A stretch of 64,000 nucleotides of DNA from an uncultured Croceicoccus sp. (lineage in GTDB: Bacteria > Pseudomonadota > Alphaproteobacteria > Sphingomonadales > Sphingomonadaceae). A program made the translations under genes and the position numbers. The notes beneath the pieces were generated by a model. The model ran no database searches and had not been told where the DNA came from. It saw nothing but the letters and a program-made list of their open reading frames with translations. The DNA lies in assembly GCF_947496385.1 (NCBI RefSeq), contig NZ_CANMCP010000004.1:186001-250000 (forward strand), read 5' to 3'. This document shows, one piece after another, positions 3,077 to 24,739 of this stretch (position 1 is the stretch's first letter; every line of letters begins with the position of its first letter).

Positions 3077-3382
3077 GGCCCATACATAGCATGTTGCACT
3101 GCAAAAGTCAGGGGTAAGCCCGGAATTTACGGCAAGATGTGCCCGATGCATGGTCAATGCAACCGTCGTGGCGCTGTTTGCCCTTTCGGCACGGCGGGGC
3201 GGGGCAGGGTTCCACCGCCGACCTCACGCCTCGCGCACTCTGGCGCAAAACGGCGCTCTGCTGCGCAATGGCATGCAGCATGCCGTGGGCAAGTCGAACG
3301 GTCGACCCGGCACCAGCCGGCCGCGTCCTGTTGCGCGTCCAACCGCCCCCACCGCCTATTTCACGTGAAACAACCCGCGGGA
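3077..3382. other. Intergenic region between fadD and proA containing a parS-like site
   Basis: These 306 bases separate the fadD stop from the proA start, both on the minus strand. The clearest content is the ParB-type palindrome at 3357-3372. I see no convincing gene: the open frames here are short, GC-driven and lack family residues. The proA promoter must lie at the low-coordinate end, but no strong -35/-10 pair is obvious. Confidence 0.6.
3357..3372. promoter_or_regulatory. parS-like ParB-binding site 1
   Basis: The sequence TATTTCACGTGAAACA differs at one position from the bacterial chromosomal parS consensus TGTTTCACGTGAAACA. It lies in the intergenic region only 11 bases beyond the fadD stop and about 9.7 kb to the left of the proposed origin. 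It is the only well-matching site on the left replichore within the window. Confidence 0.8.
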
Positions 3383-11563: not shown

Positions 11564-12183
11564 GATTGCATCGCTCCGAACCGGCGCAGCGCCGAAAGCA
11601 CCGGGAACAAGGGCATGCCCAGGATGCAGAAATAATCGCCCTCGACCGATTCGAACAATTGCACGCCGCGCCCCTCGATCATGAAGACCCCGACGCAGGC
11701 ACCGACGGCCGGCCACTCGCTGTCGAGATAGGCGGCGATGAAATCGTCGGACAAGTCACGCACGTGGAGGCGGGCAAGTGCGGCATGGCGCCATTTTACC
11801 GCCCCATGCTGCACCAATGCTGCACCGCTATGCAGCTCCATCGTCCGGCCCGAGAACCAGCGCAAATGCTCTGCCGCCTGTTCGCGGCTCTCCGGCTTGT
11901 CGAACAATCGCCCGCCGCACTGAACCAGCGAATCGCTGCCGAGCACGAGCGCGTCGCCGGCGTCCCCCGCAATGGCCAGTGCCTTTGCATCGGCAAGCGC
12001 CTGCGTGATTGTTTCGGGCTTTTCTCCTGCCATCGCGGTCTTGATCGCGGCCTCGTCGACATCGGCGGGGCGCGCGGTATAGGCCACGCCCGCCCCGTCG
12101 AGCATGGCTCGACGCGAGGCGGAGCGGGACGCGAGCACGAGGCCCGGCGGCAATGGCGCCCTTCTCATATCGGTGATGCTCAT
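11560..12183 (-). CDS. maf: Maf family nucleotide pyrophosphatase
   Basis: Maf proteins hydrolyse canonical or modified NTPs and are tied to house-cleaning and septation. The protein has 207 residues with LVLASRSASRRAMLDGAGV (16-34), the core ETITQALADAKALA, VLGSDSLVQCGGRLFDKP and the C-terminal FESVEGDYFCILGMPLFP. The active-site pattern resembles the m7GTP-type (YceF-like) branch, but I cannot assign the substrate firmly. Both ends overlap neighbours by ATGA (ppsR stop and aroE start), indicating one translationally coupled operon running away from the origin. Confidence 0.92.
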   Translation of the reverse strand: MSITDMRRAPLPPGLVLASRSASRRAMLDGAGVAYTARPADVDEAAIKTAMAGEKPETITQALADAKALAIAGDAGDALVLGSDSLVQCGGRLFDKPESREQAAEHLRWFSGRTMELHSGAALVQHGAVKWRHAALARLHVRDLSDDFIAAYLDSEWPAVGACVGVFMIEGRGVQLFESVEGDYFCILGMPLFPVLSALRRFGAMQS

Positions 12184-13034
12184 ATCGGTTTCGTCCCGCC
12201 GATATTGTCCGGGTCGGCGGCGAGCCTCGCCTTGCGTTCATTATAAAGCTTGATCACGGCGGCGGCGGTTTCCTCGATCGAGCGGCGCGTGACGTCGATC
12301 ACGGCCCAGCCATTGTCGGCGAACATGCGGCGAGCATATTTCACCTCCTTTTCCACGCGATCCTTGTCCACGTAATCGGTTTCCGGCGTCTGGTTCAGCG
12401 AGAGGAGCCGGTTGCGCCGCACCTGAACCAGCCGGTCGGTCGAGGTGGTGAGCCCCACGACCATCGGATGGCGCAGGCCGAAAAGCGCGTTCGGCGGCGG
12501 CGATTCCACCACGATCGGGATATTGGCGGTGCGAAAGCCGCGATTGGCGAGATAGATCGACGTCGGCGTCTTCGACGTGCGCGACACGCCGGCGAGCAGG
12601 ATGTCGGCCTCCTCCCATTCTTCCCAGAGCAGGCCATCGTCATGCGCGATGGTGAACTGGATCGCCTCGACCCGCTCGAAATAGGCATCGTCGAGCACGT
12701 GCTGCCGCCCGGGCCGGTGCACCTTTTCCTTGTCGAGCAGGCGCGCCAGCGGATCGGTCACGGAATCGAGCGCGCTGACCGTTTTCAGCCCCGCCTCGGC
12801 ACAGCGTTTCTCAAGACTGTCGCGCAGGGCCTCGTTCACCACCGTGAACAGGACCAGTCCCGGCTTCGTCACGATCTCGTTCATGATCCGGTCGAGATGC
12901 TGCTGCGAGCGGACCATCGGCCAGAAATGCCGGTCCACGATCGCATTCTCGAACTGCGCGAGCGCGGCCTTGGCGATCATCTCCAGCGTTTCGCCTGTGG
13001 AATCCGACAGCAGATGGAGATGAAGGGGGGTCAA
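12180..13034 (-). CDS. ppsR: Pyruvate, phosphate/water dikinase regulatory protein (bifunctional kinase/phosphorylase, DUF299)
   Basis: DUF299 proteins use ADP to phosphorylate and inactivate PEP synthase or pyruvate phosphate dikinase, and reverse this by phosphorolysis. The domain begins LHLHLLSDSTGETLEMIAKA, includes the P-loop-like LLAGVSRTSKTPTSIYLANR (mid-protein) and ends with SIEETAAAVIKL. A TTG at 13034 has AGAGGA seven bases upstream and gives 284 residues, matching family length. A longer in-frame start at 13133 would add 33 non-conserved residues inside the origin region. It is the first gene of the leftward operon, directly bordering oriC. Confidence 0.88.
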   Translation of the reverse strand: MTPLHLHLLSDSTGETLEMIAKAALAQFENAIVDRHFWPMVRSQQHLDRIMNEIVTKPGLVLFTVVNEALRDSLEKRCAEAGLKTVSALDSVTDPLARLLDKEKVHRPGRQHVLDDAYFERVEAIQFTIAHDDGLLWEEWEEADILLAGVSRTSKTPTSIYLANRGFRTANIPIVVESPPPNALFGLRHPMVVGLTTSTDRLVQVRRNRLLSLNQTPETDYVDKDRVEKEVKYARRMFADNGWAVIDVTRRSIEETAAAVIKLYNERKARLAADPDNIGGTKPI

Positions 13035-13400
13035 GCGAACGTCCTCTTTCGTCTGTTTTGGCGCACAGGGCACACCAGCCGGAGACCCTGTGGAAAGCTT
13101 CGCCGATAAACCACGGGAGAGCCTTGTGGACAAGTCCGGGCTGCCGAGCTGTCCCCGCTATGCCGGATTCGGTGCGGCGGGTTGTGGACAGGGCAGCGAA
13201 ACGTGCACAGCCTGTGCATAAGGCGGACAACTATGCTTTGACTCATGCCGGGTCGGGAGTCGCAGTTGCAATTGCCCGTGGCCATCGGGTGATATTTCGG
13301 GCAGGCGCCATGTTTCCCCGATATCCACAGGGCCAACAACTCTCATCAACCCTTATCTAGAATCTTATTATTCTGTATTCTGCGCGGAGCTTTTCAAAAA
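13035..13400. other. oriC: Probable chromosomal replication origin (oriC)
   Basis: This 366-base gap lies between ppsR (-) and hemE (+), the position of oriC in Caulobacter and many alphaproteobacteria. DnaA-box-like 9-mers are TTATGCACA (complement of 13213-13221, a full TTATNCACA match), TTGTCCACA (complement of 13125-13133), CTGTCCACA (complement of 13183-13191), CTTTCCACA (complement of 13089-13097) and ATATCCACA (13321-13329). An AT-rich stretch at about 13341-13400 next to hemE could be the unwinding element. GANTC sites occur at 13166, 13240, 13257 and 13360. Genes on both flanks read outward. I see no canonical CtrA site (TTAA-N7-TTAA). Exact limits are uncertain. Confidence 0.85.
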
Positions 13401-14426
13401 ATGGCCGGACTTCTCCTCGACACGCTGAATGGTGCGAACCTTGCCGAACGCCCGCTCTGGCTCATGCGGCAGGCCGGGCGCTACCTCCCCGAATACCGGT
13501 CATTGCGCGCGGAAAAGGGCGGATTTCTGGCGCTGGTTTACGATAGCGAGGCCGCCGCGGAGATCACGATGCAGCCGATCGACCGGTTCGGGTTCGACGG
13601 GGCGATCCTGTTTTCCGACATCCTCATCGTGCCCTACGCCATGGGGCAGGACCTGCAATTCCTCGCAGGGGAGGGGCCGCATCTCACGCCCCGGCTCGCC
13701 GATCATGCGCTGGGGGCGCTCCAGGCCGTGCCTGAGCGTCTCGATCCGATCTACCGGACTGTGGCCCTGGTGCGGGAGCGATTGGGCGCGGAGCGGACGA
13801 TGCTGGGCTTTGCCGGCGCGCCGTGGACCGTCGCAACCTACATGGTGAACGGCGAAGGCAGCCGGGATCAGCATGCCACCCGCGCCATGGCCTATCGCGA
13901 TCCGCTCGCATTCGGCGCGATCATCGACGCGATCGCCGATGTGACGGTCGAATATCTGGTCAAACAGGCACAGGCCGGCGCCGAGGCGGTGCAATTGTTC
14001 GACAGCTGGTCGGGCACGCTCGCCCCCGACGAATTCGAACGCTGGGTCATCGCGCCGACGGTGCGCATTGTGGAGGCGTTCAAGGCGCAATGCCCCGACA
14101 CGCCCTTCATCGGCTTTCCCAAGGGCGCGGGCGAAAAGCTGGCCGCCTATGCGCGCGAAACCGGGATCGATGCGGTCGGCGTCGACGAAACGGTCGATCC
14201 GCAATGGGCGGCACGGGAATTGCCGGCCGGCATGCCGGTGCAGGGCAATATCGATCCGCTGCTGCTGCTCGCCGGCGGCGAGGCGATGACCCGCCGCGCG
14301 CAATTCATCCTCGATTGCTTTGCCGATCGCCCGCACGTGTTCAACCTCGGTCACGGGATCGGCAAGGACACGCCGATCCCCCATGTCGAGCAATTGTTGC
14401 AGGCCGTCCGGGGCTGGCGGCGATAA
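13401..14426 (+). CDS. hemE: Uroporphyrinogen decarboxylase HemE
   Basis: HemE decarboxylates the four acetate side chains of uroporphyrinogen III to give coproporphyrinogen III. The protein is 341 residues with the N-terminal signature RPLWLMRQAGRYLPEYR (about 17-33), ILFSDILIVPYAMG (about 70-83) and GFAGAPWTVATYMVNG. The ATG at 13401 follows the AT-rich edge of oriC, with GGAG 11 bases upstream. It is the first rightward gene from the origin and a known alphaproteobacterial oriC neighbour; hemJ follows. Confidence 0.97.
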   Translation: MAGLLLDTLNGANLAERPLWLMRQAGRYLPEYRSLRAEKGGFLALVYDSEAAAEITMQPIDRFGFDGAILFSDILIVPYAMGQDLQFLAGEGPHLTPRLADHALGALQAVPERLDPIYRTVALVRERLGAERTMLGFAGAPWTVATYMVNGEGSRDQHATRAMAYRDPLAFGAIIDAIADVTVEYLVKQAQAGAEAVQLFDSWSGTLAPDEFERWVIAPTVRIVEAFKAQCPDTPFIGFPKGAGEKLAAYARETGIDAVGVDETVDPQWAARELPAGMPVQGNIDPLLLLAGGEAMTRRAQFILDCFADRPHVFNLGHGIGKDTPIPHVEQLLQAVRGWRR

Positions 14427-18115: not shown

Positions 18116-18814
18116 TCAGGCCAGATGCTGCGCAAAAAATTCGTCGGTGCGGCGATTGGCAAGCGCGGCTGCATCCTCGTCCCGGCGCGATCCGTCCGCG
18201 GTTGCGAATCCGTGGCCGAGCCCTTCGTAATCGTGTAGCGTGACCTTCGGATGATCGTCGAGTCCGGCGTGCATCCGGGCCTGCGCATCGGGACCGACGA
18301 AATCATCCGCGGTCGGGATATGCAGCATGAGCGGTTTTGCAATCGCCTCTTTCTCATCCAGCATTTCGTCGATGGCGACCCCGTAATAGCCGACCGTCGC
18401 GTCGACGTCGGTGCGCGCCGCGGTCATGTAGGCGATCTTCCCGCCGAGGCAGAAACCGACGGCGCCGACCTTGGTGATATCGCGCTCCTTGCGGAGCCAG
18501 CGGATCGTGGCTTCGATATCCTCGACATTGCGGTCGGGGTTGTTCTTGCCCATCATGTCGAACGCTTTCTGCCGTTCGTCTTCGTCGTCCCAGCTCGTCT
18601 CGACGCCCGGCTCCACGCGCCAGAACAGATCGGGTGCAATGGCGAGATAGCCTTTCGCCGCCCAATCGTCGCATTTCTTGCGAATGCCGTCGTTGACGCC
18701 GAAGATTTCCTGAATGACGATCATCGCCGCCTTCGGATTTCCCGCCGGCTTTGCGACATAGGCGCCGAATTCCTGATTTCCGTCGAGCGTCTTGATCCGG
18801 GTGTCGAGTGTCAT
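18116..18814 (-). CDS. Dienelactone hydrolase family protein
   Basis: A 232-residue alpha/beta hydrolase of the dienelactone hydrolase type. The nucleophile elbow is GFCLGGK (120-126) with Cys122 as nucleophile, and IQEIFGV (34-40) supplies the conserved Glu. The catalytic histidine sits in GLGHGFA near the C-terminus. True substrates range from dienelactones to other lactones or esters and cannot be told from sequence. It is transcribed with the FMN glutamate-synthase-like gene (11-base gap). The pair interrupts the usual rho-to-mnmE neighbourhood. Confidence 0.9.
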   Translation of the reverse strand: MTLDTRIKTLDGNQEFGAYVAKPAGNPKAAMIVIQEIFGVNDGIRKKCDDWAAKGYLAIAPDLFWRVEPGVETSWDDEDERQKAFDMMGKNNPDRNVEDIEATIRWLRKERDITKVGAVGFCLGGKIAYMTAARTDVDATVGYYGVAIDEMLDEKEAIAKPLMLHIPTADDFVGPDAQARMHAGLDDHPKVTLHDYEGLGHGFATADGSRRDEDAAALANRRTDEFFAQHLA

Positions 18815-19200: not shown

Positions 19201-20481
19201 ATGACCGAAGCGACGATTTTCGCGCTGTCGAGCGGGCGACCGCCGGCGGCCATTGCGGTGTTGCGCATAAGCGGGCCACGGGCGACGGACGCGCTCATCG
19301 GCATGGCAGGCGGGATGGTGCCGCCACGCAAAGCAAGTTTGCGCCAGCTGCGCGACCGGGACGGCGCTGTCCTCGACAAGGCGATCGTCCTCTTCTTTCC
19401 CGGCCCGGCGAGTGCGACGGGGGAGGACAGCGTCGAATTTCACCTTCATGGTGGGCGTGCGGTCATCGCCGCTGTTGAGCGGGAGCTGGGCACTCTGCCG
19501 GGATTTCGCCCCGCAGCGGCAGGCGAATTCACGCGGCGCAGCTTTGCGAACGGGCGCCTGGATCTGAGCGAAGCGGAGGGGTTGGCCGACCTGCTGGAGG
19601 CCGAAACCGAACTGCAGCGGCGCAACGCGCAGAGCCTTGCCGATGGTGTCCTTTCGCGGCTGGTCGCCGAATGGCGCGAAACCGTCCTGATGCTCGGCGC
19701 GGAAGTCGAGGCGGTCCTCGATTTCTCCGACGAAGAGGATGGGGAGGAGCTATCGCCAACGTTTCACGTGAAACGCGATGCCTTGCAAGCGGACCTCGAA
19801 CAATGGGCCAATGCGCCGCGACTCGAAGCATTGCGGGAAGGGTTTCGCGTGGTCATCGCGGGACCGCCCAATATCGGAAAAAGCAGTCTTTTCAATGCGA
19901 TCCTGCGCGAAGACGCGGCGATTGCGACACCCATCGCGGGCACGACCCGTGACGTGCTGTTTCGTCCGGTTGCCATTGAGGGCATCCCGTTTCAATTCGT
20001 GGATACGGCGGGCATCCGGGATGATACGAGGGATCAGGTCGAGAAGATTGGCATCGAGCGGGCGAAATTGGCCCTCGCGACCGCGGATGTCGTTCTCTGG
20101 CTCGGACCGGAGGGGGAGGGGCCAACGGACGCTTGGGAGATTGAAACCAAAGCCGACGTCGCAGATCGCCTTGTAAAGGAAAAGCCTGCCGTGGTCGTAT
20201 CTGCCAGTACCGGGGCGGGCGTCGATGACCTCGTCCGGCAGCTCGTAACGGTCGCGCGTGACCGCATGCCCGCGCCTGGATCGGTGGCTATCTCGAATTT
20301 CCAAAGGTCGCAGATTTGCGATGCTCTCGATGCATTACGTGACATCCCCGCGTCGGACGACATGCTCGTTCTGGCCGAACGTCTGCGTTTGGCAAGGCTG
20401 GCGTTCGATCGGCTGACGGGCACGAGCGATGTGGAAGCGATGCTCGACCGGCTTTTCTCGCGCTTTTGTATCGGGAAATAG
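19201..20481 (+). CDS. mnmE: tRNA modification GTPase MnmE
   Basis: MnmE with MnmG installs the 5-(carboxymethyl)aminomethyl group on wobble uridine 34 of several tRNAs. The protein has 427 residues: an N-terminal folate-binding domain ([20 protein letters not shown]), a helical region, a G domain with P-loop GPPNIGKSS (221-229) and DTAGIRD, and the C-terminal CIGK that supplies the conserved Cys. The ATG at 19201 is preferred over in-frame upstream codons that overlap DUF6489. The parS-like site at 19760-19775 lies within the gene and encodes TFHVKR at about 187-192, just before the G domain. Confidence 0.96.
19760..19775. promoter_or_regulatory. parS-like ParB-binding site 2 (inside mnmE)
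   Basis: CGTTTCACGTGAAACG is a perfect 16-bp palindrome matching 14 of 16 positions of TGTTTCACGTGAAACA; only the outermost base pair differs. It lies in-frame within mnmE at a variable linker between the helical and G domains. Confidence 0.8.
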
Positions 20482-22381: not shown

Positions 22382-23037
22382 CCGATCCGGTCGATGCCAA
22401 CGACCGCGACGAGAGTCTGGCCCGCATCCGCCAGATACCACGCGTGGATGTGGCCACGGTTCGCTTGCTTGATGAATATGTGGTGGCTTTGATCGCGGAA
22501 ACCGCTCATCAGAATCTTATTGCGCGCTCCACGATCGGGAATATTTGGTCGCGGCATATCCTTGATTCGGCGCAGCTCATCGGCTTCGTTCCACGTGAAA
22601 CACGCTTAGGGTCTTGGGTCGACGTTGGAACAGGTGCGGGATTGCCTGGCATGGTCTGTGCCATTTTGCTGCCGGATTGCGAATTCACATTGATCGAGCC
22701 GCGCACAAAGCGGGTCGATTTTCTCCGGAGAGTAGTGAACGCGCTATCCCTGAACAATGTCCGTGTCGAGCCGTCGACGATACAGAATGTTGTCCAGGAC
22801 AAGGTCGATGTTATTTCGGCGCGAGCGGTTGCCGCAACGGAAAAGCTCGTGGCCATGGCCAGCCACCTCGCCCGTCCCGACACGTTCTGGCTGCTTCCAA
22901 AAGGGCGGGGCGCTTTTTCGGAGCTGGACGGGATAGCCGCGCCGCATGGTTTTCACGTGGAACATTCGGTGACCGATCCGGAATCCGGTGTTATAGTGGG
23001 CACCATGCGAAACTTATCGGGAAAATCGGGTTCATGA
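22378..23037 (+). CDS. rsmG: 16S rRNA (guanine527-N7)-methyltransferase RsmG (GidB)
   Basis: RsmG methylates G527 of 16S rRNA using SAM. The 219-residue protein has [21 protein letters not shown] (family N-terminus, seen as NLIARST and WSRHILDS), the SAM-binding [18 protein letters not shown], and [16 protein letters not shown]. The start is GTG at 22378 overlapping the mnmG stop; the stop overlaps the parA ATG. Two parS-like sites fall inside the gene, coding for VPRETR (about 71-76) and GFHVEHS (about 191-197). Confidence 0.95.
22587..22602. promoter_or_regulatory. parS-like ParB-binding site 4 (inside rsmG)
   Basis: CGTTCCACGTGAAACA matches the complement of the TGTTTCACGTGGAACA form with one outer-base change. 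It lies within rsmG between the N-terminal helices and the SAM-binding motif. Confidence 0.75.
22949..22964. promoter_or_regulatory. parS-like ParB-binding site 5 (inside rsmG)
   Basis: GTTTTCACGTGGAACA keeps the core TTTCACGTGGAACA; only the two outermost left bases differ from TGTTTCACGTGGAACA. It lies in the 3' part of rsmG, 70 bases before the parA start. Confidence 0.75.
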
Positions 23038-23810: not shown

Positions 23811-24739
23811 ACGACGCGACGAAGGCACCGAAGAAGCGAGCCGCGCTCGGTCGCGGGCTTGGCGCGCTGCTCGGTGATACACAGACCGAGCGACTTGTTT
23901 CACGTGGAACAGCCGCACCCGAAGATGTCGGACGCCAAGACGGCCTGACCGTGTTGCCGGTCGCCTCGATCGAGCCGCATCCCGAGAATCCGCGCGTCAA
24001 TTTCGATGCCGATGCGCTTGATGATCTTGCCCGATCCATCGCGAGCAGGGGCGTCATTCAACCTGTGATCGTGACGGCGAGCGGCCATGGGCGTTACCGG
24101 CTCGTCGCGGGTGAACGACGCTGGCGCGCGGCGCAGAAGGCGCAATTGCATGAAATTCCGGCGATCGTTCGCGATCTCGCCGACCGCGACGTCGCGGCGC
24201 TCGCGCTGATCGAGAATATTCAGCGCGAGGATCTGAACCCGGTCGAGGAGGCGCGTGCGTACCACCGTCTTCATACCCGTAACGACATGTCGCAGACCGA
24301 AATCGCCCGCATGGTCGACAAGTCGCGCAGCCATGTCGCGAATCTCATGCGCCTGCTCGCCCTGCCGGAGCCGGTTCTGACCATGGTGGAAGCGAACGCA
24401 TTGTCGATGGGCCATGCGCGCGCGCTCATCAACGTGGACAATGCGGAAGAGATTGCGCAGACCGTCGTCGACGAGAATTTGTCGGTGCGCGATGTCGAAA
24501 AGCTTATCCGCCGTCGCAATGCACCGGCGAAGGAGCCGCGCCACCGCGCCGCGCGGCCCAGCACGCGCGAAAACGATGCCGATATTCTGGCCATTCAAAA
24601 GCAGCTGGAAGAGTTTCTCGGCCTGCCCATCCGGATCGAGCCCGACGGGTCGGAGCAGGGCGGTGCCGTTACCGTGCGCTACAAGACGCTTGATCAGCTC
24701 GATCTCGTCTGTCAGCGGCTTTCGGGCGGTGAAATCTAA
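23807..24739 (+). CDS. parB: Chromosome partitioning protein ParB
   Basis: ParB is the CTP-dependent DNA clamp that loads at parS and spreads. It has 310 residues. An N-terminal ParA-interacting stretch has RAALGRGLGALLGD (11-24), followed by the CTPase/ParB-N domain with GERRWRA (112-118) and ENIQREDLNPVEEA (136-149). The helix-turn-helix is at SQTEIARMVDKSRSHVANLM (about 162-181), and a C-terminal dimer domain completes it. The best parS match in the window lies inside this gene (23896-23911). The stop codon directly abuts that of the convergent msrC. Confidence 0.97.
   Translation: MNDATKAPKKRAALGRGLGALLGDTQTERLVSRGTAAPEDVGRQDGLTVLPVASIEPHPENPRVNFDADALDDLARSIASRGVIQPVIVTASGHGRYRLVAGERRWRAAQKAQLHEIPAIVRDLADRDVAALALIENIQREDLNPVEEARAYHRLHTRNDMSQTEIARMVDKSRSHVANLMRLLALPEPVLTMVEANALSMGHARALINVDNAEEIAQTVVDENLSVRDVEKLIRRRNAPAKEPRHRAARPSTRENDADILAIQKQLEEFLGLPIRIEPDGSEQGGAVTVRYKTLDQLDLVCQRLSGGEI
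23896..23911. promoter_or_regulatory. parS site 6 (inside parB, best match)
   Basis: TGTTTCACGTGGAACA is a full match to a common bacterial chromosomal parS sequence. It overlaps codons 30-35 of parB, encoding VSRGT in the disordered segment between the ParA-interaction peptide and the CTPase domain. Confidence 0.88.

Follow-up and report, generated by a model that had tools for sequence, protein, structure and literature searches.

The DNA analyzed here, referred to as the window, is a stretch of 64,000 bases (positions 186001-250000 of contig C4, which is 358,921 bases long) from a 3.34-Mb genome in 55 contigs. The closest named match of its hemE is from Croceicoccus sediminis (82%), and the source is a sphingomonad. 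Within the window, the minus-strand gene ppsR (TTG start at 13034) and the gene hemE (ATG start at 13401) diverge from a gap of 366 bases between them (13035-13400; the gap scripts ran on 13032-13400). Among NCBIfam models, hemE exceeds its cut-off, and ppsR, which we take to belong to the DUF299/COG1806 family, passes the cut-off set for the PPDK/PEP-synthase regulator subfamily and falls below that of the narrower PpsR model. The genes to the right of hemE are hemJ, at 117 bits against a cut-off of 138, and rho, which exceeds its cut-off; those to the left of ppsR are maf, at 113.7 bits against a cut-off of 117, and aroE and coaE, each above a cut-off. No RNA family reached its gathering score within the window. 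The features of the locus are listed in Table 1.

Table 1. Features in and around the ppsR-hemE gap, in window coordinates
Position	Strand	Feature
3357-3372		parS-like site, 1 mismatch to consensus, 9.7 kb left of gap
12180-13034	-	ppsR (PEP synthase/PPDK regulator), left flank of the gap
13035-13400		Non-coding gap between divergent ppsR and hemE, very probably oriC
13089-13097	-	DnaA box CTTTCCACA, first part of conserved left module (TGTGGA-A on + strand)
13106-13118	+	ATAAACCACGGGA, long near-invariant element of left module
13125-13133	-	DnaA box TTGTCCACA, conserved part is the GACAAG end (13129-13134)
13166-13170		GANTC (CcrM-type) site GATTC
13183-13191	-	DnaA box CTGTCCACA, partly conserved
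13213-13221	-	DnaA box TTATGCACA, partly conserved
13240-13244		GANTC site GACTC, overlapping conserved TTGAC (13238-13242)
13257-13261		GANTC site GAGTC
13321-13329	+	DnaA box ATATCCACA, facing AT-rich end; conserved block TCCACAGGGCCAACA at 13324-13338
13340-13399		AT-rich stretch (63% A+T), candidate DNA unwinding element
13353-13361	+	Doubtful sixth DnaA box TTATCTAGA
13360-13364		GANTC site GAATC, within AT-rich stretch
13401-14426	+	hemE (uroporphyrinogen decarboxylase), right flank of the gap
19760-19775		parS-like site, 2 mismatches, 6.4 kb right of gap
22587-22602		parS-like site, 2 mismatches, 9.2 kb right of gap
23896-23911		parS-like site, 1 mismatch, 10.5 kb right of gap, directly before parB match
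23942-24460	+	parB (matched part), top score of six ParB-family matches in the genome (188.8 bits)

An earlier sequence-only reading of this DNA had described divergent genes on both sides of the gap, at least five DnaA-box-like 9-mers inside it, and a turn to AT-rich sequence beside hemE, and each of these descriptions was borne out: the divergence by the gene positions and NCBIfam matches, the boxes by five clear and one doubtful 9-mer within two mismatches of TTATCCACA, and the AT-rich end by an A+T content at 13340-13399 that is equalled by 0.03% of the sampled 60-base contig windows. No perfect TTATCCACA is present in the gap, and TTATGCACA is an exact fit to TTATNCACA. Four of the five clear boxes are oriented the same way, and the fifth, adjoining the AT-rich end, is opposed to them. 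First-order Markov resampling of the gap never gave six boxes in 2000 trials and gave five only once, and six boxes occur in 0.03% of the 369-base windows of the 358,921-base contig, every one of which overlaps the gap. When at most one mismatch to TTATNCACA is allowed, the gap holds three boxes, a number matched by 4 of 5000 resamplings; three such boxes within 400 bases are found nowhere else in the contig, and no other triple is present among the 100 listed of 177 places in the genome. Single boxes within one mismatch of TTATCCACA, on the other hand, number 5 in the whole window vs. 3.9 expected, and 177 across the genome vs. 270 for the reversed pattern. It is the clustering alone that is unusual, and single boxes carry no signal. 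Overlapping the box at 13213 is a near-perfect palindrome, TGCACAGCCTGTGCA (13204-13218, within 13203-13221), so that two box-like halves face each other.

The box that faces the AT-rich stretch resembles the arrangement in the basal unwinding system of Bacillus subtilis, but the DnaA-trios of that system are not supported in these gaps. According to the rule given in PMC8287927, at least three trios lie within 16 bases of a DnaA box. We rejected a DnaA-trio beside the box at 13321, as 5 of 35 gaps have at least three NTN triplets no more than 16 bases from the TCCACA box, a smaller share than the 33% of shuffles, and the window gap itself has two.

For the complete genome, the sequence-only reading had called for a cumulative GC-skew minimum at the gap. 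Computed on the 358,921-base contig only, the profile is noisy and agrees with this to within several kilobases: the minimum is 5.4 kb off, at window position 18,781, and a single change point fits best at 199-205 kb of the contig, corresponding to 13-19 kb of the window (sums of squares 351,677 at 204 kb and 352,819 at 199 kb, vs. 383,669 without a change point). The keto-skew minimum, 38 kb to the left of the gap, fits less well. Two relatives were sampled for comparison. On the 3.27-Mb scaffold of Erythrobacter sp. NAP1 (40 stretches sampled), the skew has a peak near 1.14 Mb and a flat valley whose lowest sample is at 2.77 Mb, compared with 2.68 Mb for hemE; a contiguous 280-kb stretch of this scaffold has a local minimum 47 kb from hemE and just four parS-like sites, which are all to the same side of the hemE start and 5-8 kb away from it. 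In Sphingomonas phyllosphaerae FA2, sampled in 20 stretches, hemE is at 3.07 Mb and the skew is lowest in the sample at 3.04-3.06 Mb, with a sample at 2.66 Mb almost equally low.

The partitioning elements are also gathered around the gap. Across the 3.34-Mb genome there are five parS-like sites with at most two mismatches, all of them on this contig, and none of the reversed pattern; four of the five lie within 11 kb of the gap, on both sides of it, and the fifth is 137 kb away. The best parB match is 10.5 kb from the gap. The dnaA match is on the same contig (C4:14760-16097, minus strand), 183 kb from the gap, and an origin at dnaA was rejected, as the skew, the parS-like sites and the clustering of boxes all point elsewhere.

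The gene arrangement recurs widely among relatives. One hemE scan yielded 80 related loci, 75 of which have a divergent ppsR upstream of hemE, and these together with the window provided 76 gaps (286-442 bases as extracted, hemE start codon included, with gene starts extrapolated from alignments). They hold on average 2.4 boxes within one mismatch of TTATNCACA, vs. 0.15 expected, with no such box in 4 of the 76, and in 73 of the 76 the final 60 bases before hemE are more A+T-rich than the remaining gap. Five loci in which ppsR was not found (L068, L069, L071, L078, and L089) were left out of the gap counts. The contig of L071 ends 139 bases before hemE; among the four informative loci, L078 and L089 have boxes, and L068 and L069 have no box within one mismatch in the 700 bases before hemE. 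It is possible that the origin has moved in the latter two lineages, or the MAG contigs may be misleading. At the class level, 148 of the 190 genomes searched matched hemE; among the loci of the best-scoring 30 of these 148, the window's own genome included, a divergent ppsR is present in 27, 24 of them outside the order.

As the sequence-only reading had noted, the gap occupies the place of the Caulobacter oriC: the Caulobacter crescentus origin, Cori, is described as lying between hemE and CC0001, a COG1806/DUF299 gene (PMC1914354). The same genes flank both, and each consists of several hundred non-coding bases that include DnaA boxes, of which Cori has five, and a short AT-rich run (PMC1914354). 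Also common to both are GANTC motifs, which are reported for the Caulobacter origin (PMC3973325) and number four in the window gap. By contrast, the five CtrA sites and one IHF site reported for Cori (PMC1914354) have no counterparts as consensus sites in the window gap: the full CtrA consensus TTAA-N7-TTAA is absent from it and occurs in 1 of the 76 gaps, and the IHF consensus WATCAANNNNTTR is found in none of the 76 in its strict form and in 6 in a relaxed form, the window gap not among them. This lack agrees with the finding, described in PMC8116508, that growth of Sphingomonas melonis is unharmed by the loss of CtrA.

Closer to the window's lineage, the oriC predicted for Sphingopyxis granuli TFA and for other Sphingomonadaceae is similar by description: it is near hemE with conserved gene order, and it has a putative unwinding element along with several conserved DnaA boxes (PMC4741004). 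It differs in that none of the 42 gaps outside our footprint set, where Sphingopyxis belongs, has the left module described below. For Novosphingobium sp. PP1Y, the predicted oriC lies near hemE at a switch in base composition, in which there are three DnaA boxes, and N. aromaticivorans is reported to have the same hemE-side arrangement (PMC4059872). A dnaA gene is nearby in PP1Y (PMC4059872), whereas here it is 183 kb away. Published work has also placed the Rickettsia origin at hemE. With Cori between the same genes, and the Sphingopyxis and Novosphingobium origins placed beside hemE, the gap belongs to a known type of origin. Its location is therefore not itself new, as it is established for Caulobacter and was already predicted for sphingomonads.

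Footprints of conservation were sought in an alignment of 34 Erythrobacter/Novosphingobium-type gaps, the window included, a set picked from record titles and similarity rather than by tree. The aligned left module consists of TGTGGA-A, ATAAACCACGGGA, and then GACAAG, and it is followed by a central block, TTGAC...GA[GT]TCG, and a right block, TCCACAGGGCCAACA, that precedes the AT-rich end. Among the boxes, those at 13089 and 13321 are strongly conserved over the 34 gaps and those at 13183 and 13213 partially, and the one at 13125 is conserved mainly in its GACAAG end. Within the left module, 28 of the 34 gaps have an exact ATAAACCACGG and 31 have it within one mismatch; ATAAAC(C/T)A is found in 33. 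Of these 34 gaps, 25 contain the exact joint pattern, TGTGGANA-N(4-12)-ATAAACCACGG, vs. none of the 42 others. Among 296 genomes of the order, this pattern also matches 84, one of them the window's own (none for the reversed control), which do not constitute an independent test, since the pattern was derived from the 34-gap set and the genomes may share species. There is one match per genome, the spacing is always 8 or 9, all 84 belong to the window's family, and all eight matches fetched as loci lie between ppsR and hemE. As a universal element of the order, ATAAACCACGG was rejected: it is within one mismatch in only 33 of the 76 gaps, 31 of them in the 34-gap set, and in L060 and L077 it stands in another place, 86-87 bases before hemE.

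Among the 42 other gaps, a TGTGGATAA box is present in the left part of 17, and 8 have an NNC(A/G)NGG flank after the box, which led us to suspect a modified DnaA site with a conserved flank. The ATAAACCACGGGA element is possibly the remnant of such a DnaA box and flank, which we offer as a lead only. An exact-string search for the left module in an open-access library gave a single paper, on an unrelated subject; the module may still appear in print in figures or under other spellings. Tentatively, we suggest that TGTGGANA-N(8-9)-ATAAACCACGGGA is a lineage-specific, single-copy module of Erythrobacter/Croceicoccus/Novosphingobium-type origins, and that it contains the longest near-invariant stretch in the left half of the gap. 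It might be read by a tandem mode of DnaA, with a good box and a decayed box about one helical turn away bearing a fixed flank, or by an origin-specific protein that replaces CtrA/IHF, with the CcrM sites serving as the cell-cycle signal. Taken as one proposition, this reading is somewhat more apt to be wrong than right.

GANTC sites are enriched in the 76 gaps, with 13.3 per kb vs. 2.2 in their loci (gaps included), or 6.0-fold, and for seven control motifs of identical composition the factor is between 0.6 and 3.2; in the 24 gaps outside the order, the densities are 7.5 vs. 2.2 per kb. GANTC density was nevertheless rejected as a unique marker of the gap, as nine contig clusters reach 4 sites per 369 bases, the window gap's count, and AGNCT is also 3.2-fold enriched in the gaps. 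GA[GT]TCG is present in 33 of the 34 gaps of the footprint set, the window included, and TTG(A/C)C followed by GANTC 13-14 bases on is present in 27 of the 34 vs. none of the 42 others. This pair lies 131-150 bases before hemE (13238-13261 in the window) and may represent a promoter of the CcrM/GcrA type within the origin. The genome contains a CcrM-like methylase (N6_N4_Mtase and RAMA; its score against the Caulobacter CcrM model is 599 bits, short of the cut-off of 830) and a GcrA match. Outside the window, at least four GANTC sites are clustered just before the dnaA match (C4:16394-16997), as would be expected if CcrM methylation acts on dnaA transcription. In addition, a DnaA-box-like TTGTCCACA on contig C1 (C1:423668-423676) precedes the CcrM-like gene's methylase match (C1:423832) by about 156 bases and may lie in or just before the start of that gene. 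For Agrobacterium, CcrM depletion is described as causing no obvious change at the DnaA-dependent ori1 (PMC11514494), and this result counts against a role of GANTC in origin control.

These sites bear on another explanation, in which the gap is only the divergent promoter region of ppsR and hemE, its DnaA and GANTC sites are transcriptional, and the origin is elsewhere, for example beside dnaA. DnaA sites also control genes in Caulobacter. GANTC sites are likewise reported to control genes there (PMC8116508), the TTG(A/C)C-GANTC pair in 27 of the 34 near gaps could belong to a CcrM/GcrA-controlled promoter, and a GANTC cluster also stands directly before dnaA; yet the skew switch, parS, and parB indicate the gap and not dnaA 183 kb away, the clustering of boxes is unique in a contig that includes dnaA, and the conserved blocks are distributed along the gap, which together make a promoter-only gap highly improbable. 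There is next to no likelihood that the origin core is instead in some other gap up to about 20 kb away, close to the skew minimum (18.8 kb) or to parS/parB (19.8-24.5 kb): although the minimum (18,781) and three of the four nearby parS-like sites are to the right of the ppsR-hemE gap, one parS-like site is on the left, a comparable box cluster occurs nowhere else in the contig, the blocks conserved in relatives sit in the ppsR-hemE gap (ppsR-hemE gaps being what was aligned), and parS sites usually lie some kilobases from oriC.

Overall, the ppsR-hemE gap is very probably the chromosomal oriC, and the origin that the sequence-only reading placed between these genes is supported by the box cluster, the skew, parS and parB, and the recurring gene arrangement. 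Counting against it are the lack of a perfect box, the 4 of 76 gaps and the two loci (L068 and L069) without a box within one mismatch, and the offsets of the skew minima (5.4, 38, and 47 kb).

If the gap is oriC, we infer that DnaA would bind the head-to-tail boxes on the ppsR side (13089 to 13221, in one orientation, with the left module among them) and also the single opposed box at 13321 by the AT-rich stretch. The DnaA-ATP assembly would then open the AT-rich stretch adjoining hemE, the helicase would be loaded, and two forks would exit through ppsR and hemE. ParB on the parS sites at both sides would help to separate the new origins. Right after firing, the GANTC sites of the gap would be hemimethylated, and they may couple the origin or a hemE promoter to the cell cycle via CcrM/GcrA, a role for methylation that is the least certain of these steps.

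The gap likely marks coordinate zero of the chromosome, and it adds a case to the rule that the alphaproteobacterial oriC is located between hemE and a ppsR/COG1806 gene. The left module is the part that specialists might not know, and with exactly one match per matching genome, it may serve to tag oriC in draft genomes of the group. Where consensus sites for CtrA and IHF are lacking, the footprint gives targets for mutation, namely the left module, the central GANTC, and the box with CCAACA by the AT-rich end.
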